A stretch of DNA of 64,000 nt from Aestuariispira insulae (GTDB taxonomy: Bacteria; Pseudomonadota; Alphaproteobacteria; UBA8366; Aestuariispiraceae). Every line of letters begins with the position of its first letter. The first letter of the stretch is position 1. Positions 1 through 19,614 of this stretch are shown here, piece after piece. The position numbers were made by a program, and so were the translations under genes. The stretch is from assembly GCF_003385955.1 (NCBI RefSeq), contig NZ_QRDW01000010.1, forward strand, positions 1 through 64,000, read 5' to 3'. Under the pieces are notes generated by a model. That model did no database searches, was not told where the DNA came from, and saw only the letters and a program-made list of their open reading frames with translations.

Positions 1-87
1 CATGCCCCCATACTGCTTGCAAACAACAACGTAACTGAGCAAAACTTTAACCGACGACTCTGCCTATAGCTGGAGGAACTCTGGGGC

Positions 88-438
88 TCAGGTCATTTTG
101 ACTAAACGATGTTTTCGTACGATGTCAGGCTCCGCGGCCCGATCGTCCATTTTGACTTCGTAATAAACTGAACCCGCACGATATTCGACCAAGACGTCCG
201 GTATGTAGTACCGGTTCTTCATTCCATCTCGATAATCGAGCCTCTCAGGCTGCACTTCGAAACAGATGACTTCCGGATCTAATTCTAGAAGTTTCAAGAA
301 ATCACGTTCTGGCTGCGATTCCCAAGGCAACGATTTTTTGCACTTAAAGCTATGAAAAAGGCCGTTAAATCGATTTCGCCCCCTATTGAGGACAGGTTCT
401 CTAACTCGCATTTCAACCTCCGTACAAAATTTGGACAA
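88..438 (-). CDS. TnsA-like endonuclease N-terminal domain protein, short or truncated
   Basis: The 116-residue product has the PD-(D/E)XK pattern of the TnsA N-terminal domain: an early Glu in SQPERDFL, then FEVQPERLDY, the catalytic Asp in YIPDVLVEY and the EVK motif near residue 95. In Tn7-like elements TnsA cuts the 5' ends of the transposon, working with TnsB. It starts with TTG behind an AGGTGG ribosome-binding site. Family members run on for roughly 80-130 more residues after EVK, whereas this one stops about 20 residues later. No clear continuation is visible in the 87 bases left before the window edge. It is therefore either truncated, frameshifted or a minimal nuclease. The domain call is fairly firm; activity is doubtful. 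Confidence 0.65.
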   Translation of the reverse strand: MSKFCTEVEMRVREPVLNRGRNRFNGLFHSFKCKKSLPWESQPERDFLKLLELDPEVICFEVQPERLDYRDGMKNRYYIPDVLVEYRAGSVYYEVKMDDRAAEPDIVRKHRLVKMT

Positions 439-714
439 AGGCCACCTGCTGCGAGAATCAATCTCGCCTCTTGCCTGGATAAGGAAATGGTGCTAGAGAG
501 GGTATTGCTAAATAGGCCTCTTTAGGCAGACATTGACCGTCCCGGCTTGCTGGTGGCGGTTTTTGTTTCTATTGCTCCTTTTCATTCACAATATGAAACA
601 AAGTAGAGCGAGCCTGGTTCACCGGCAAGTTCCCGCATTCATTTGATTTTGCAGGGGGCACCTCTTCGGATAAATGAGTTTTGTGCGACTTTTTTAACCT
701 AGTGCTTAAGCCAA
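439..714. other. AT-rich non-coding stretch upstream of the TnsA-like gene
   Basis: No open frame here looks like a protein. Composition is clearly more AT-rich than the rest of the window. It holds the TTG start context and presumably the promoter of the TnsA-like gene, but I cannot point to a convincing promoter or terminator. Confidence 0.5.
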
Positions 715-833
715 GCTAATATTTTCACCTATTTTGCTTATATTTTTTTTCATCGATTTTCATAGTCTGAAACTGGTTAAAAATTCCAATAGCAAGTGGC
801 TGCTTATATTTTCGCGATCTTGCTTATATTTTT
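715..833. repeat. AT-rich spaced repeats (GCTTATATTTT)
   Basis: Four copies of GCTWATATTTT start at 715 (GCTAATATTTT), 736, 802 and 822. They form two pairs with 21- and 20-bp internal spacing, i.e. two helical turns, so same-face protein binding is likely. They could be further transposase (TnsB-type) sites inside the element end, or operators for the TnsA-like gene. The motif differs from the GTTRTTTGCA pair nearer the tRNA, so the two sets should not be assumed to bind the same protein. Confidence 0.5.
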
Positions 834-950
834 CCGAGATAAATTTAACTATGAGATCACTCGGAAACTCGGATCAGGCCAAATAAATCTTGTCCGAATA
901 TTTTTTTTCGAAAAATGCACCAAACGCACAGAAAGTGCGATTCACTACAG

Positions 951-970
951 CGCGGTATTATAATACCGCG
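951..970. repeat. Perfect 20-bp palindrome
   Basis: The two arms CGCGGTATTA and TAATACCGCG are exact reverse complements with no loop. No T-run follows on either strand, so it is not a terminator. A dimeric regulator operator or recombinase site is the simplest reading. It sits in the non-coding DNA between the AT-rich repeats and the candidate element terminus. Confidence 0.6.
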
Positions 971-1018
971 AATCGGTGTGATGCTCGTTGCAAGTACGGA
1001 TCAAGTTTGTTTGGGTAA

Positions 1019-1109
1019 AGTCGAGTGCCAGAGACATATCCACATCACATTAGAAAACACTGATGCAAATAACTTTGGCCAGAATTGCAAACAACTGTGG
1101 CACTCGACA
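1019..1109. repeat. 91-bp unit bounded by an inverted repeat at the candidate terminus
   Basis: GTCGAGTGCCA at 1020-1030 is inverted as TGGCACTCGAC at 1098-1108. Extending both arms to 15 bases gives 13 matches. The outer arm begins TGT on the minus strand; the inner arm begins AGT. It may be a terminal repeat plus an internal inverted copy, or a very small inverted-repeat element on its own. Confidence 0.5.
1064..1095 (-). repeat. Two 10-bp direct repeats spaced 22 bp
   Basis: On the minus strand GTTGTTTGCA (1095-1086) is followed by GTTATTTGCA (1073-1064), exactly 22 bp apart and starting 14 bp from the TGT terminus. This spacing is what adjacent TnsB sites show in Tn7-family ends. A further exact copy of the 10-mer complement, TGCAAACAAC, lies at 18-27 inside or just past the TnsA-like gene and may be chance. 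Confidence 0.45.
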
Positions 1110-1116
1110 AGAGAAA

Positions 1117-1193
1117 TGGTGGGCCCGGCAGGAATCGAACCCGCGACCAATCCGTTATGAGCGGACCGCTCTAACCAACTGAGCTACAGGCCC
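1117..1193 (-). tRNA. tRNA with CAU anticodon (Ile-lysidine or elongator Met)
   Basis: The minus strand folds as a full cloverleaf: acceptor GGGCCTG pairs with CGGGCCC, D arm GCTC/GAGC, anticodon stem GTCCG/CGGAT with loop CTCATAA, T arm GCGGG/CCTGC. The CCA end is encoded at 1117-1119. The anticodon is CAU. The stem sequences resemble alphaproteobacterial tRNA-Ile(CAU), modified to lysidine, more than initiator Met; elongator Met is not excluded. Its 3' end faces the accessory DNA on the left. Confidence 0.9.
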
Positions 1194-13673: not shown

Positions 13674-13690
13674 TGGAAATCATTTTGCCC

Positions 13691-14935
13691 TTAGTCGAGA
13701 TTGGCAACAGTTTCAGCCGCTTCCCGCAAAGCATCTTCGGGGGATTGATTTCCAAGCAGGGCGTTTTGAATGGCCAATTGTAATGCAGCGGACATTTCCT
13801 GATAAGACGCCTTGGTCGGACGCGGATACATGGCCGCCAAACCAACCTTGGCAGCAACCAGCAGCTCTTCCTGGCCCTTGGCGATTTCAGGATTATCATA
13901 GGACGCCTTCCATACCGGCAGGCTCAGACGGGCAAAGTCTTCCTGCACAGGCATTGAGGTCAGATGCTGGATATATTTCCAGGCCAGGTCCTTGTGTTTG
14001 CTGTTGACCGGAATACCCAGCCCCATGGACCCATTGACCGCAGACGCTTTGCTGATATCGGCCTCCCCCAAAGCAGGCGCGATCCGAACCTGGCCGGCAA
14101 CCGATGATTCCTCCGGATTGTTGGCAAGGCTGTACATATAGGTCCAGTTGAGGGCGAACGCCGCCTGACCGCTGGAAAAGGTGCGGCGCACATCTTCTTC
14201 GGAATATTCCCTGGAGTTGGGATTGGTTAAGCCCGCCTTGATACTGTCCACCATATATTCCAACGCCTTTAACCCGCCGCCAGAATGAAAGACTGGGTTC
14301 TTCTTATCATCCAGAAATTCCCCGCCCATTGCAGACAACAAGGTGGTGTAATCACAAATGACGGCTTCGGATTGCGACCAGCTCCAAACCAGTGGATATT
14401 CCACAACCCCTTTTTCCTTCAGGGTTTTCGCCTGCTGAACCAGCTCGCCCCAGGTCGCCGGCGGACTATCGATTCCCGCCTTTTTCAACATGGCTTCGTT
14501 ATAGAACAGATATTTGGTATCCACGATCCAGGGCATGCCATAATACTGCCCATCATATTCTACAGTAGACCATGCCCCCTCCAGGATTTTCCCCTTGGTC
14601 GTGCTGTCAATCTTGTCACTGACATTCTCCAGCAGCCCATATCGGGCAAATTCCGCCGGCCAGATGACATCAAACAGAACAACATCGTAACCATCCGCAG
14701 CGTTGTGGGATAAAACGATTTTGTCATGCAGCGCCTCGTAGGGCACAAACTCCAATTTGACATCAGTACCGGGGTTTGCCGCTTCGAAAGCTTCTGTCAT
14801 CTGTTCGATATCTTGCTCACTATAGGCCGCCTGGGCCATGAACAAGGCGCTCAATTGGGTGTCCGCCCCCAAGGCAGCGCCAGAAAACACCAGGCTTCCC
14901 AAAGCGGCAGCCAGCCATTTATTTCCCAGTTTCAT
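13691..14935 (-). CDS. Extracellular sugar-binding protein of ABC importer
   Basis: The 414-residue periplasmic protein has a signal peptide ending ALGA near residue 24, then an SBP_bac_1 fold (TEAFEAANPGTDVKLEFVPYEALHDKI; the central block DGQYYGMPWIVDTKYLFYN). It captures the sugar for the two permeases. First gene of the minus-strand operon, with its promoter in the 139-bp gap facing the ROK regulator. The ligand is not predictable from sequence. Confidence 0.94.
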   Translation of the reverse strand: MKLGNKWLAAALGSLVFSGAALGADTQLSALFMAQAAYSEQDIEQMTEAFEAANPGTDVKLEFVPYEALHDKIVLSHNAADGYDVVLFDVIWPAEFARYGLLENVSDKIDSTTKGKILEGAWSTVEYDGQYYGMPWIVDTKYLFYNEAMLKKAGIDSPPATWGELVQQAKTLKEKGVVEYPLVWSWSQSEAVICDYTTLLSAMGGEFLDDKKNPVFHSGGGLKALEYMVDSIKAGLTNPNSREYSEEDVRRTFSSGQAAFALNWTYMYSLANNPEESSVAGQVRIAPALGEADISKASAVNGSMGLGIPVNSKHKDLAWKYIQHLTSMPVQEDFARLSLPVWKASYDNPEIAKGQEELLVAAKVGLAAMYPRPTKASYQEMSAALQLAIQNALLGNQSPEDALREAAETVANLD

Positions 14936-15074
14936 TGTAACCTCCCTGTTTCAAGGTTTGCGCCACCCGACAAATCACTCTTATGTTTGTATCTTATCAC
15001 TGTCTGTGGCAGTTTTAGTCGAGACTCATTTATTAATTCAATTTGATTTAATTAATATAGCGCGGAAGTTTTTG
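14936..15074. promoter_or_regulatory. Divergent regulatory region with candidate ROK operator
   Basis: This gap separates the importer operon from the ROK regulator. It contains an AT-rich dyad at 15032-15056, ATTAATT-11 bases-AATTAAT, close to the ROK gene start. ROK repressors such as NagC and Mlc bind AT-rich palindromes of about this size. Assignment to this regulator is inference. Confidence 0.5.
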
Positions 15075-16292
15075 ATGACAACAAGAATCTCGAAACCGGG
15101 ACAAAACAGGTCTTTCATGCAGGGTGTTTCCGGTACAAATCTGGGCTTTGCCAAGGAACATAATCTCCGCGCGGTCATCGATGCCGTGCGCCGCCACGAT
15201 GCGTTGACCCGCGCTGAAATCACCCGGATCACCGGGCTTTCCGCACAAACCATCTCCAACCTCGTCGGCGAATTGGAAGCACGTGGCCTTCTGGTGGCCG
15301 GCGCGCCGCAAAAAGCCAAACGCGGTCAGCCGGCAAGGCCATACAGCCTCAACCCAAACGGTGGCTATTCCATTGGCATTCAGGTGGATTATCAGATGGC
15401 ACTCGCCACATTGGTCAACCTGTCCGGTCAGGAATGCCACCAGATCAAAAAACAGATTGCGCGCCCTTCCCCGAATGACGGCGTCATCATATTGTCCGAG
15501 ATCATCGACCGGCTTTTGATCGAAAGCGATGTCGCCCGCGAACGGGTATTCGGGGTCGGGGTGGCAATTCCAGGTCCCTTTTGTGTCAGCGGCCCGACCG
15601 GCATCGGCCCGGGCTGGGTCGAGTTTCCCGTGGCTGAACGGCTGAGCGAACGCAGCGGCCTCCCGGTGATAGTGGAAAATGATGCTAATGCCGCCGCAAT
15701 CGCCGAACGGCTGCATGGCGCAGGCCGCAACAACGACAATTTCATTTATATTTTCATCGGCATGGGCCTGGGGGCCGGCCTGTTCATCAACGGACAAATT
15801 TACCGGGGGCTGCGCGGCGCGGCGGGCGAGATCGGCCATATCATCGTGGAACCGGGCGGCAAAATCTGCGAATGCGGCAACAGAGGATGTCTGGAACGCT
15901 ACGTTTCCCTGCGTGCCGCCTACGAAGCCATTGGCGAGGCGGAAGACGATCCAGACAGCCTGGCCAAATTGGAACAAAGGCTCAACGACAATGACCCCGC
16001 CGTGAAGGCCTGGTTGAAGGATGCCGCCGAAAAGCTGAGAATGGGCATTCTGGCTCTGGAAAGCACCCTGGATCCCGAAGCCGTTTTCATCGGTGGCCTG
16101 TTGCCATCCAAACTGGCGGAAGCGCTGATGGCAGAGTTGTTACCCCCCCTGCCATCAGTGACCACCCTACAGGGATCCGGGCAAGGTTCCGGAGAACCTC
16201 ATATCCAGCTCGGCAGAAGCGCCCCTTCCGCGCCGGCCCAAGGTGCTGCCAGCGTCCCGATTTTCAATGAGTTCAACCCGGGGCCGACCTGA
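15075..16292 (+). CDS. ROK-family transcriptional regulator
   Basis: About 405 residues. An N-terminal winged helix-turn-helix (DALTRAEITRITGLSAQTIS, about 38-57) is followed by a ROK sugar-kinase-like domain: GVAIPGP, VENDANAAAIAE, the FIFIGMGLGAG phosphate loop and the zinc motif CECGNRGCLE. It is divergent from the importer operon and probably represses it until the sugar or its phosphate binds. I chose ATG 15075 behind GCGGAAG; the open frame runs further upstream but would overlap the binding-protein gene. The C-terminal 40 residues are Ser/Gly/Pro-rich. Confidence 0.93.
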   Translation: MTTRISKPGQNRSFMQGVSGTNLGFAKEHNLRAVIDAVRRHDALTRAEITRITGLSAQTISNLVGELEARGLLVAGAPQKAKRGQPARPYSLNPNGGYSIGIQVDYQMALATLVNLSGQECHQIKKQIARPSPNDGVIILSEIIDRLLIESDVARERVFGVGVAIPGPFCVSGPTGIGPGWVEFPVAERLSERSGLPVIVENDANAAAIAERLHGAGRNNDNFIYIFIGMGLGAGLFINGQIYRGLRGAAGEIGHIIVEPGGKICECGNRGCLERYVSLRAAYEAIGEAEDDPDSLAKLEQRLNDNDPAVKAWLKDAAEKLRMGILALESTLDPEAVFIGGLLPSKLAEALMAELLPPLPSVTTLQGSGQGSGEPHIQLGRSAPSAPAQGAASVPIFNEFNPGPT

Positions 16293-16327
16293 TCACAAGC
16301 CCCCACCTCCCCACTTCGGCCAGAAGG

Positions 16328-16834
16328 TCAGGTTAGTGCATTATTGCAATCATGGCGATCCGGCGTCCGGCGGAACGTCATGGTCCAGTTCACCTCCCAA
16401 CTCTTTCCTCCATCCGCTGAAAAGGCCTGCTCCCATACCGGGGTCGGGGTTTCCATGCTCCGCCAGCGGAACCGGACCTTGATCGGGCGGCCTTCGAAAA
16501 CATCTTCCGCCAGAAAGATCCCCTCGCCCCCTTCAAATCGGCCGACGACCGGCACATCCATGCCGTGGGGGGACCGTCCGTCCAGCCACCAGATCGCCCA
16601 CTCCCCGCTTCTTTGGTCAAAACTGCGCACCGACATGGCGCGGTAATCCCCCTCGGGCAGCGCCAAGAGATTATCATCCACATTGCCTATCCCGCCCAAG
16701 GTCGGCCAGACAGCGACACACCCGCCAAATTCCTGCCAGTCATCCGCTCCGGCCAGACGGGTTTTCAGCCGCCGATGTGCGACCTCCCATTGACCATGCA
16801 GAAAATCAAACTCCGTTCCTGGCACCACTGTCAT
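16328..16834 (-). CDS. DUF1579-like protein
   Basis: The 168-residue cytosolic protein has no signal peptide. Features: FDFLHGQWEVAHRRLKTRL near the start, a Trp-rich centre (GEWAIWWLDGRSPHGMD) and VFEGRPIKVRFRW, as in the DUF1579/heme-binding-like beta-barrel group. Function is not known. It lies between ROK and the anchored surface gene, facing left, without an operon partner. ATG start. Confidence 0.6.
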   Translation of the reverse strand: MTVVPGTEFDFLHGQWEVAHRRLKTRLAGADDWQEFGGCVAVWPTLGGIGNVDDNLLALPEGDYRAMSVRSFDQRSGEWAIWWLDGRSPHGMDVPVVGRFEGGEGIFLAEDVFEGRPIKVRFRWRSMETPTPVWEQAFSADGGKSWEVNWTMTFRRTPDRHDCNNALT

Positions 16835-17234
16835 TTTGAATGCTTCCCTTTATCTATACCCCTATCCGCCGGTTGCCGGATCAGGATCGTCAGCTGCTCG
16901 TTTCTTTACGGGCCGCACTCTATCTCCGCCCTGCTGACAGGGTCTTGTCAGTAAGGAACGCTCAGACCGATATTTTTTCCGCACAAATTTTTTTGGGCGA
17001 CTGCCGTCTCTTCGATAAATACCAATTTTCGAGTTTGTTGAAAAATCAACAACTTCTGACAAAACCAATGAAATTGGCAGTTTTCTGCAGCTTTGACCGG
17101 AATTTTGCCCCCCGGAAATAGCGCGAATTTATCTTGCATTTTCGGTAATTTCATATCAAAACCGGTCAGGAGACATGGAAATGTCGCGATCAGAATTCCT
17201 GCCCGCATGAGACGGGCAACGGGGGACAGAGATT
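16835..17234. promoter_or_regulatory. 400-bp intergenic region with an inverted repeat
   Basis: No credible gene. An inverted repeat TTGTTGA-AAAA-TCAACAA lies at 17035-17052, upstream of the anchored surface protein gene, in an AT-rich stretch that could hold its promoter. The final 30 bases supply the ribosome-binding region (GGGGGACAGAG). Confidence 0.45.
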
Positions 17235-18062
17235 ATGAAAACCATTTATCGGGCGCTTGGCCTGCTGGCTGTCGGCCTTCTGGCAGCACTGCCTGCTCGG
17301 GCCGGCGTGATCGACCTGGGCACAGCCGATGACTATACGCTGCTGGCGACCGGTTCGGCATGGGGCGGCTCCATGGTGCTGGGTTCCGAAGTGGATATCG
17401 GCGGTAATATCGGTGCGCGTGACAGCGTACTGATCGGTACCGGCTCAACCATTGACGGCAATGTGGATGGCGGCCTCGTTCATTTTGACGCCAGCACCAG
17501 CATCACCGGTGCGGTTCAGACACGCTCCGGCGGCTACTGGGATCAGGTCACCAGTGATCTGAAAAATGCCTCTCTCTTTGCTGCCAACATGGCCGGCAGC
17601 GATAGGGGCAATATCACCGATACCACCATTTTATCCGGCGGCGGTGTTTCGGTTTTCCATCTGGACGGCCTCGCACTGGGCTCCGGCGAGACCCTGTTCC
17701 TGGATGGTGACGCAACCTCTGAATTTGTCATTAATGTCAGCGGCAGTTTCATCATGAATGGCGGGGCGGAAATCGCACTGCTCAATGGTCTGCAGCCCGC
17801 CAATGTCACCTTCAACATCCTGGAAGCATCCCTGATCCAGATGAATAACGCCATTGCGGTTGGCACCTTCATCGCGCCAGAAAGCTATGTCCAGCTGGGC
17901 GATGGCAATATCCTTGAAGCCACCCGCTTCCTGGGCGGCGCCATGCAGGGCAACCTGCAGTCTGTGCGCCCGCCCTCGGTTGTTGATGTACCGGCACCGG
18001 CCATGATCGGCCTGATGTTGATCGCCATTGCCGGCGTTGGAACGATCCGCCGGTCCCGCTAA
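17235..18062 (+). CDS. Secreted beta-helix surface protein with PEP-CTERM-like anchor
   Basis: 275 residues. A signal peptide ends ALPARAG near 24. The body is rich in Gly, Asp, Ser and Thr with repeated short strands (VDIGGNIGARDSVLIGTGS; FVINVSGSFIMNGGAEIALL) like choice-of-anchor-A or ice-binding-like beta-helix domains. The C-terminus has VPAPA, a hydrophobic helix and IRRSR, the layout of a PEP-CTERM-type sorting signal. If that is right it is exported and processed by an exosortase, which is not in this window. Role: probably cell surface or matrix; the exact family is uncertain. Confidence 0.72.
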   Translation: MKTIYRALGLLAVGLLAALPARAGVIDLGTADDYTLLATGSAWGGSMVLGSEVDIGGNIGARDSVLIGTGSTIDGNVDGGLVHFDASTSITGAVQTRSGGYWDQVTSDLKNASLFAANMAGSDRGNITDTTILSGGGVSVFHLDGLALGSGETLFLDGDATSEFVINVSGSFIMNGGAEIALLNGLQPANVTFNILEASLIQMNNAIAVGTFIAPESYVQLGDGNILEATRFLGGAMQGNLQSVRPPSVVDVPAPAMIGLMLIAIAGVGTIRRSR

Positions 18063-18083
18063 ATCAAAGCGACATTCTGTAAG

Positions 18084-18119
18084 AAAAAAGCGCGGCCGGT
18101 TTCCGACCGCGCTTTTTAT
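18084..18119. terminator. Bidirectional terminator
   Basis: Stem GCGCGG-C-CGG / CCG-A-CCGCGC with TTT loop, flanked by six A on the left and five T on the right. It can serve both the surface protein (plus) and amn (minus). Confidence 0.88.
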
Positions 18120-18138
18120 TGCCTCCATCCCTGCGTTT

Positions 18139-19614
18139 TTACCGGAAAGCCGGCTCAGAGAAACTTCTCAGCTTTCGGGAATGCAGCCGGTCGACGCCCT
18201 GTTCCTGCTCGCGGAGCATGCGGATCGCCTCGATTGAGATATCCAGATGCTGGCTGATCCGTTCCTTGTAGAAGGCATTGGCCATGCCGCGCAGCTTGAT
18301 CTCCCCATGCATCGGCTTGTCCGAGACGCAGAGCAAGGTGCCATAGGGCACCCGGAAGCGAAAACCGTTGGCGGCAATGGTGGCGCTTTCCATATCCACC
18401 GCCACAGCGCGGGACTGGCTGAACCGTTTGGAAAGTTCGGAATATTGCAATTCCCAGTTCCGGTTATCCGTGGTGGCCACAGTACCGGTACGCATGGAGA
18501 TCTTGAGGTCCGGACCGGTCAGGCCGGTGACGCTGGCCACCGCCTGTTGCAGGGCCACCTGCACTTCGGCGATCGGCGGCACCGGCACCCAGGTCGGCAG
18601 ATCGTCATCCAGCACATGGTCTTCACGCATATAGGCATGGGCCAGCACGTAATCCCCCAGTGACTGGGTTCGGCGCAGGCCGCCGCAATGGCCGATCATC
18701 AGCCAGCAATGGGGGCGCAGGACAGCGATATGGTCGGTGATTGTCTTGGCGTTGGAGGGCCCAACCCCGATATTAACCAACGTAATACCGTCCCGATCCG
18801 ACCGTTTCAGGTGATAAGCCGGCATCTGCGGCAAGTGATCCAGCGGCCTGCCCGACGGCTTTTCATCGGAATAGCGCGGGTTCGGCGTGATCACATCACC
18901 AGGTTCAACAAAGGCTTCATATTCATCGCCATTCTCCACCTGATCGCGGCTGTATTTAATGAATTCATCCACATAGCGCTGATAGTTGGTGAATAGCACG
19001 AATCGCTGGAAATGGCTGGCATGGGTTGCCGTGTAGTGCGCAAGCCGCATGCAGCTCAGATCAACCCGGACCGCAGAAAAAAGCGACAACGGGAAAGGAT
19101 AGCCCGGTTTGGGTTCAAACGTGCCGTTGGCAATGGAATCATCAATATCCGCCAGGTCCGGCATGGTGAAAATGCGTTGAAGATCCTTCACATCATCGGA
19201 GGTCACATCCGCGGTCGCATGCTCGATCACAAAAGGCAGCGGGATCGGCCGATCGGATATGCCGATCACCACGGATGTACCATGGCTTTTCATCAACAGC
19301 GCGATTTGTTTTTTCAAATAGCCGGTGAACATGTCCGGCTGGGTCAGGGTTGCGCCGTAATGCCCCGGGAAAGAGAGCGTTCCATAAGACATGTTCAGAT
19401 CATGGGCCGGATGCGGGTTATCCACCCGCAGGCCCAAATACGGATAATAGGCCTCCACCGGCTCAATTTCCCGGTTGCCTTTGGAAAACTCATCAAAGGC
19501 GCGATGGATCTTCTCCACCTCTGTTTCATAGAGGCGTTTGATCTCTGCAAAAGCAGAATCCGGATCGGTAAATTCCGTGAGATTACGGGCGTTGCCGTGG
19601 CCAGTTCCTGGCAT
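18139..19614 (-). CDS. amn: AMP nucleosidase
   Basis: The 491-residue product hydrolyses AMP to adenine and ribose 5-phosphate, adjusting the adenylate pool. An N-terminal regulatory region of about 180 residues is followed by a nucleoside-phosphorylase-like catalytic domain with IGVGPSNAKTITDHIA, HCWLMIGHCGGLR and the VDMESATIAANGFRFRVPYG block. Length fits the family (about 480-500). ATG start; monocistronic, sharing a terminator with the gene to its left. Confidence 0.95.
   Translation of the reverse strand: MPGTGHGNARNLTEFTDPDSAFAEIKRLYETEVEKIHRAFDEFSKGNREIEPVEAYYPYLGLRVDNPHPAHDLNMSYGTLSFPGHYGATLTQPDMFTGYLKKQIALLMKSHGTSVVIGISDRPIPLPFVIEHATADVTSDDVKDLQRIFTMPDLADIDDSIANGTFEPKPGYPFPLSLFSAVRVDLSCMRLAHYTATHASHFQRFVLFTNYQRYVDEFIKYSRDQVENGDEYEAFVEPGDVITPNPRYSDEKPSGRPLDHLPQMPAYHLKRSDRDGITLVNIGVGPSNAKTITDHIAVLRPHCWLMIGHCGGLRRTQSLGDYVLAHAYMREDHVLDDDLPTWVPVPPIAEVQVALQQAVASVTGLTGPDLKISMRTGTVATTDNRNWELQYSELSKRFSQSRAVAVDMESATIAANGFRFRVPYGTLLCVSDKPMHGEIKLRGMANAFYKERISQHLDISIEAIRMLREQEQGVDRLHSRKLRSFSEPAFR

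Follow-up and report, generated by a model that had tools for sequence, protein, structure and literature searches.

A probable Tn7-like transposon right end behind a CAU tRNA gene in Aestuariispira insulae

Excerpts of three papers (PMC8649781, PMC11406308, PMC10293859) describe Tn7-like transposons for which tRNA genes serve, by way of TnsD/TniQ proteins, as attachment sites, and there the elements lie downstream of an intact tRNA gene, as does the element described here. By the same partial accounts, one type I-D CAST inserted about 30-33 nt behind a tRNA-Leu gene, whereas the present element and its Thalassospira relatives sit 7-12 bp behind a CAU tRNA gene, and the I-D/I-B2 branch has fused TnsA-TnsB (PMC11406308), whereas the relatives possess separate tnsA and tnsB genes. 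Tn6022-type elements, so far as the excerpts describe them, encode TnsA, TnsB, TnsC and TniQ and target comM through TnsF with TniQ; the target here is a tRNA gene. Among the literature matches listed, none was recognised as treating this CAU tRNA as a Tn7-like site, and no paper in the library searched joins Tn7-like elements and Thalassospira.

Here, we describe the start of a 64,000-nucleotide stretch of the Aestuariispira insulae genome (hereafter, the window), which forms the opening 64 kb of C10, one of the 49 contigs in a draft assembly, its first base being the contig start. At a probability of about 0.93, positions 1-1109 comprise the right end and the beginning of tnsA from a Tn7-like cut-and-paste transposon, which was inserted 7 bp beyond the point where a CAU tRNA gene has its 3' end. 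This type of insertion is familiar, and the window element is a further Tn7-like transposon behind a tRNA gene. The reading accounts both for the contig end and for a broken nuclease gene, which an annotator would otherwise label hypothetical, and it points to an attachment site common to different alphaproteobacterial lineages, the CAU tRNA near rpoD.

Architecture of the right end and its target tRNA gene

The features of the window's first 1,193 bases are as follows.

1..95, no strand: end of a multicopy IS3-like insertion sequence (assigned by contig-end identity), truncating tnsA; also the assembly break
96..438, minus strand: 5' part of a tnsA-type endonuclease gene, about 114 codons, IS-interrupted (PF08722, E 6e-7)
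715..833, minus strand: four AAATATAAGC-like motif copies in two pairs 20-21 bp apart, upstream of tnsA (repeat family D2)
951..970, no strand: perfect 20-bp palindrome CGCGGTATTATAATACCGCG between the right end and tnsA (I16)
1019..1030, plus strand: inverted terminus copy AGTCGAGTGCCA, 11/12 bases, its far end about 90 bp inside the element
1064..1073, minus strand (reads 1073-1064): second putative TnsB-binding site GTTATTTGCA, 22 bp from the first
1086..1095, minus strand (reads 1095-1086): first putative TnsB-binding site GTTGTTTGCA, from spacing and repeat
1097..1109, minus strand (reads 1109-1097): right terminus TGTCGAGTGCCAC, 13 bp identical to the right end of a complete Thalassospira lucentensis element
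1110..1116, no strand: 7-bp gap between terminus and tRNA gene (7-12 bp in relatives), with AGAGA at 1110-1114 as the would-be target duplication
1117..1193, minus strand: intact tRNA gene with CAU anticodon and encoded CCA (ARAGORN tRNA-Met(CAU), and sequence)

An earlier note, made from the DNA letters and their open reading frames, had placed a TnsA-like nuclease gene here, reading away from a terminus at 1109, with two repeats 22 bp apart just inside that terminus and with the terminus itself 7 bp from the 3' end of a tRNA gene; each of these points was borne out. The ORF at 88-438 (minus strand) matches the TnsA N-terminal domain PF08722 at E 6e-7, above the curated cut-off, and the NCBIfam TnsA-like model NF033179 at E 2e-13, below the cut-off of that model. 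It is the gene nearest to the right end, starts about 0.67 kb inside it, and is oriented inward, away from the terminus. When the fragment was aligned with six full-length TnsA proteins, E44 and D81 were invariant, as were E94 and K96 in a smaller alignment; we take these four residues to be the counterparts of the catalytic residues of Tn7 TnsA. The fragment contains no stop codon ahead of the insertion sequence.

On the minus strand, the tRNA gene (placed by ARAGORN at 1117-1193) is followed by the 7-bp gap and then by TGTCGAGTGCCACAGTTGTTTGCAATTCTGGCCAAAGTTATTTGCATCAG. The two putative TnsB-binding sites are embedded in a 16-nt direct repeat, 14/16 bases identical (88%), with a spacing of 22 bp. 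The window contains 1,259 TGT triplets, both strands counted, and only the one at this terminus has a repeat of 14/16 bases or better, spaced 20-23 bp, in the next 75 bp; none of 300 dinucleotide shuffles of bases 439-1109 gave any such repeat; a chance origin of the repeats was ruled out by these two results. Both an exact search with TGTCGAGTGCCAC and a search with 24 bases of the terminus at up to 3 mismatches returned a single match in the A. insulae contigs searched. The AAATATAAGC-like motifs upstream of tnsA may be regulatory or outlying TnsB sites.

In the window, the gene order is dnaG, rpoD, an MCP-like gene, and the tRNA gene, the MCP-like gene thus standing between rpoD and the tRNA. 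DNA matching the rpoD region was found on the same side of the tRNA in four genomes of the window's family (G001, G004, G012 and G013). The C4-G69 and C5-G68 pairs of the target tRNA presumably favour its identity as tRNA-Ile2 over elongator tRNA-Met. A candidate second CAU tRNA gene of the genome, at C1:115898, proved to be tRNA-Asp.

Related elements behind the same tRNA gene

One genome per species, 84,980 species in all, was scanned with a profile built from three TnsA sequences, which yielded 41 loci; an earlier genome scan with the window TnsA alone had given 31 candidate stretches, none of which was confirmed. Five of the 41 TnsA loci contain a tRNA gene, in every case with a CAU anticodon, located upstream of tnsA in two (L146 and L151) and downstream in three. 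In L151, from Thalassospira lucentensis, TGTCGAGTGCCACAAAAGTTG starts 9 bp behind the tRNA gene, and in L146, from Thalassospira sp. MCCC 1A01148, TGTCACGTGCCACAAAAGTTG starts 11 bp behind it. The order dnaG-rpoD-tRNA-element is found at both loci, DnaG having been checked in L151 and RpoD in both. Searching the two genomes for the terminus supplied the left ends and delimited two complete elements.

Thalassospira lucentensis (G423), C2:500146-519176: complete element of 19,031 bp, right end at 500146 and left end at 519176, TTCGA on both sides, 9 bp behind the tRNA gene
Thalassospira sp. 1A01148 (G424), C20:354574-386182: complete element of 31,609 bp, ends at 386182 and 354574, ATTAT on both sides, 11 bp behind the tRNA gene

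Both elements have TGTC...GACA ends and perfect 5-bp duplications and encode TnsA (PF08722), TnsB (Mu-transpos_C, with rve under the cut-off), TniB, and TniQ, the two TniQ proteins measuring 541 and 520 residues and each matching HTH_17 close to the cut-off. They share with the window the site behind the CAU tRNA gene after rpoD, the orientation, the TGTC terminus, the position of tnsA nearest to the right end, and sites about 21-22 bp apart; in G423, 13 bp of the terminus are identical and an inverted terminus copy likewise lies inside the right end. They differ in possessing their own tnsB, tniB, tniQ, left end, and 5-bp duplication, and in the sequence of the repeat units; their TnsA proteins are 34% (G423) and 38% (G424) identical to that of the window over the matched stretch, and the window tnsA, unlike theirs, is truncated by an insertion sequence. 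The defence cargo suggested in the earlier note has a counterpart in the relatives but none in the window: among five selected cargo proteins scanned, three of the G424 element match CBASS cyclase, E1-E2, and JAB models, and two of the G423 element match HerA and SIR2 models; the CRISPR cargo also raised in that note was not noticed.

How often the site is occupied was assessed in a census of the 29 genomes in the genus of G424 (Thalassospira), all of which have the tRNA gene. The 3' flank was readable in 28 of them; in the remaining one the contig ends within the tRNA gene (L249), and one of those counted offers only 36 bases behind it (L233). A TGTC end was present 7-12 bp behind the tRNA gene in 7 of the 28 readable genomes, six of these ends being called by a pattern with at most one mismatch and the seventh (L246) by eye and by a 3-mismatch match. 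Four genomes (G423-G426) had entered the census for their TnsA, and among the other 25 the site was occupied in four (G446, G433, G448, and G442). In the other 21 readable genomes no such end was found behind the tRNA gene, and in several of them a hairpin was seen there by eye; the earlier note had proposed a comparison with relatives lacking the insertion at this tRNA, and those compared here belong to genera other than Aestuariispira. The central proposal of the note, a Tn7-like right end beside a CAU tRNA gene, is upheld by the related elements, two of them complete, at the corresponding site in Thalassospira.

A different account of the window would make the nuclease gene a piece of cargo, a tnsA-like nuclease serving restriction or defence and carried by a different island at the tRNA gene, with the terminus and repeats being coincidental. 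Two TnsA homologues do weakly match the restriction endonuclease model NF046055, and many kinds of mobile elements are attracted to tRNA genes, according to an excerpt of one paper (PMC11406308). However, the 13 bp of the terminus recur at the end of a complete element, one that lies beside the corresponding tRNA gene between the two copies of a 5-bp duplication, the position and orientation agree with those in seven other genomes, and a repeat of this kind accompanies just one of the 1,259 TGT sites, which makes this account highly improbable. The narrower proposal that the TnsA is a stray defence nuclease was rejected on the terminus identity with Thalassospira and on the site census.

Closer to A. 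insulae, a PF08722 match was found in 5 of the 14 genomes of the window's family, its own genome included. Two of these (G004 and G013) carry tnsA-tnsB-tnsC-tniQ behind the same tRNA gene and on the same strand; TniQ of G004 was named by Pfam, whereas tnsB and tnsC were named by eye, TnsB also by BLAST. Their common right end, TGTCGGATTTCACTAA, is a TGTCG end with sites 22 bp apart and lies 120 and 122 bp from the tRNA gene. A third (G012) encodes TnsA on the contig of the tRNA gene but on the opposite side of the tRNA and was left out of the count, and in G001 TnsA is located elsewhere in the chromosome, with no such end in the 70 bases behind its tRNA gene. An attempt to recognise an empty site through gene order in G001 was abandoned, the neighbour of its tRNA gene matching the A. 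insulae genome weakly (28-32% over parts).

In G013, a further element of 4,536 bp (G013:C16, oriented 13679-18214) contains a 1276-aa gene between TGTCGGATTTCA ends, with no tns genes seen. It has the same ends as the neighbouring tnsABC-tniQ element and a 5-bp duplication, ACCAG, and it interrupts DNA that is continuous in G004. To judge by its ends, it was perhaps moved in trans.

Small elements of this sort bear on the inverted terminus copy at 1019-1030. Extended to 15 bases, this copy matches the terminus at 13, where the best of 1,000 shuffles reached 11. Copies of 11-12/12 bases lie inside the right ends of the window, L227, L235 (G423:C2), and G423:C20 (727); L240 has the same first 12 terminus bases with an inner match of 8/12, and eight other ends compared reach 7-9/12. 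The inner copy thus occurs in four of the five ends that begin with TGTCGAGTGCCA, starting 46-79 bp inside the right end. The unit at 1019-1109 might on these grounds be a separate, MITE-like mini-element and not the right end of the tnsA-bearing element, its 11/12 inverted bases forming a pair of ends as in the small G013 element that is devoid of tns genes. Against this, the unit is not flanked by matching 5-bp sequences (ggtaa on one side, agaga on the other), and the 19-kb element of G423 has a like inner copy, yet its TTCGA duplication agrees with the outer terminus as the element's end rather than with that copy. No genome was noticed in which such a unit, bounded by a 5-bp duplication, stands at the tRNA gene with no tnsA beyond it. 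We therefore regard a separate mini-element as unlikely and retain 1109 as the outer end of the Tn7-like transposon.

The interrupted tnsA gene and the missing remainder of the element

Bases 1-95 are 100% identical to the ends of contigs C30, C34, C15, and C3, and the sequences beyond them differ; because the identity recurs at four other contig ends with differing flanks, these bases constitute one end of a repeated element, which interrupts the tnsA frame at 95/96 and leaves about 114 codons of it. The outer end of the insertion sequence, TGACCTGAGCCC, pairs as an inverted repeat with TGACGTGAGCCC, which stands at seven other contig ends and which we take to be the other end of the same insertion sequence. 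The end that bears TGACGTGAGCCC shows 81% identity over 97 bp with one end of a G004 element, the first gene of which, orfA, matches HTH_Tnp_1. IS3 family elements have TGA...-type terminal inverted repeats and an orfA with HTH_Tnp_1, and the repeated element at 1-95 is accordingly best described as IS3-like, judging from sequence similarity.

The bases outside the insertion sequence in the window are TTT, and among the seven opposite IS ends read there was no AAA partner or matching duplication. Inspection by eye for the rest of TnsA at those seven ends revealed none that leads back into tnsA, tblastn with three TnsA proteins gave no match among the contig ends searched, and neither IS end was present at nine further contig ends read. 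At the end of contig C3 (L012:17654-19255), a reverse-transcriptase gene, with Drt6 as the best PADLOC model, stops at the same IS end as tnsA.

Since tnsA is broken by the IS3-like element, the window copy is probably unable to excise by itself now, and its mobility is doubtful. If this copy behaved like the intact relatives, its insertion would have begun with recognition of the tRNA gene's end by a TniQ/TnsD-type selector and recruitment of TnsC and TnsAB, by which the element would have been pasted with its right end beside the tRNA, leaving the tRNA intact; the IS3-like element would have broken tnsA later. The window copy presumably once possessed tnsB, tnsC, tniQ, and a left end.

Counting against the main reading, neither a left end with its copy of the duplication nor TnsB, TnsC, or TniQ assignable to the window copy was found in the A. 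insulae contigs searched, a set that comprised the assembly without 15 contigs (27.1 kb in all). The single TniQ match of the genome belongs to another element, on C12. Within the Tn7-like reading, the locus could therefore be a remnant in which a lone right end and a tnsA pseudogene persist, the other parts having been deleted or scattered long ago by IS activity. The interruption of tnsA and the missing left end and partner genes speak for it, as does the fact that two other Tn7-like loci of the genome also end at repeated, IS-like contig ends (tnsB on C34, tnsC on C11). The tnsA fragment, however, contains no stop ahead of the insertion sequence, and the absence of the left part is weak evidence because the assembly breaks exactly here and the 15 contigs stood outside the search. 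We put the chance of such a remnant at a little under even.

Three other Tn7-like loci of the genome were observed. At C12:8165-20557 (L051, L052), tniQ-tnsA-tnsB-tniB adjoins SspA/SspB/SspC-like genes; the locus has a TGTCAGACTTC terminus with repeats about 21 bp apart, 65 bp behind a tRNA-Ser(GGA) gene, and no convincing left end was seen within the 40 kb read. At C11:129802-133253 (L053), tnsA-tnsB-tnsC' breaks off at an IS-like contig end common to other contigs, and on C34 (L010) 'tnsB-tniB-NOV_C protein does likewise. As the missing part of the window element, the C11 genes were discarded as a separate locus that ends at another repeated contig end; repeats upstream of its tnsA, picked by eye as TnsB sites, were dropped because they may be Fur boxes, which they resemble in what we assume to be the Fur motif. 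C34 was considered since it carries the same IS end as the window, and it stays an unassigned candidate. Its TnsB is 71% identical to that of C12, and the window TnsA is 39% identical to the C12 TnsA over 83 residues and was missed by tblastn with the latter.

Kinship of TnsA and TniQ and element-borne tRNA genes

The window TnsA is 32-37% identical to the six full-length TnsA proteins, three of which head annotated tnsA-tnsB-tniB-tniQ runs on plasmids, and its relatives include Acinetobacter plasmid records (8 of 21 records). Nearest by identity is a Magnetospirillum protein (47%), in whose 12-kb locus no tRNA gene was found. In a TnsA tree, the window row was placed nowhere firmly and did not group with the TnsAs of the elements inserted at tRNA genes in Thalassospira. 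Because of this and the 34% identity to the TnsA of G423, both of which count against the main reading, the 13-bp terminus common to both elements could have outlived an exchange of transposase genes.

The TniQ proteins of G423, G424, G425 (L159), G426 (L164), and G004, all from elements that are inserted behind the CAU tRNA gene or carry such a gene themselves, show 22-65% identity in mutual alignments of 487-533 residues. The TniQ of C12, which lies near tRNA-Ser, aligns with four of the five over only 51-64 residues and with that of G004 over 174 residues at 24%. This contrast supports a TniQ that would select the tRNA gene, a pattern to which closer kinship alone could also give rise; by analogy with the intact relatives, we infer that TniQ reads the tRNA gene through DNA contact. 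Because the site is empty in some genomes and occupied in several others, and because two elements are complete, targeting of the tRNA gene by TniQ becomes testable with elements in which no CRISPR part was noticed.

Some of these elements are accompanied by a CAU tRNA gene of their own. In G424, one is located downstream of tniQ at C20:377089-377165, 9.0 kb inside the delimited element, and a 78-base CAU tRNA gene lies downstream of tniQ at three loci, identical in all of them (G425:C7:44495-44572 (L159), L150:6255-6332, and L164:5641-5718), two of these loci being in G425 and one in G426. All four copies are 91% identical to the chromosomal tRNA of G424 that served as the query. Only those of G424 and G425:C7 were seen between two ends, and the element of G423 has no copy. 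The elements might carry their own landing site past tniQ, either as a portable attachment site for stacking or as insurance for an essential tRNA with a disturbed 3' flank, the inner terminus copy then being part of end recognition or of a limit on stacking; we consider this doubtful. A further extra CAU tRNA copy, 89% identical, is present at G451:C1:82571.
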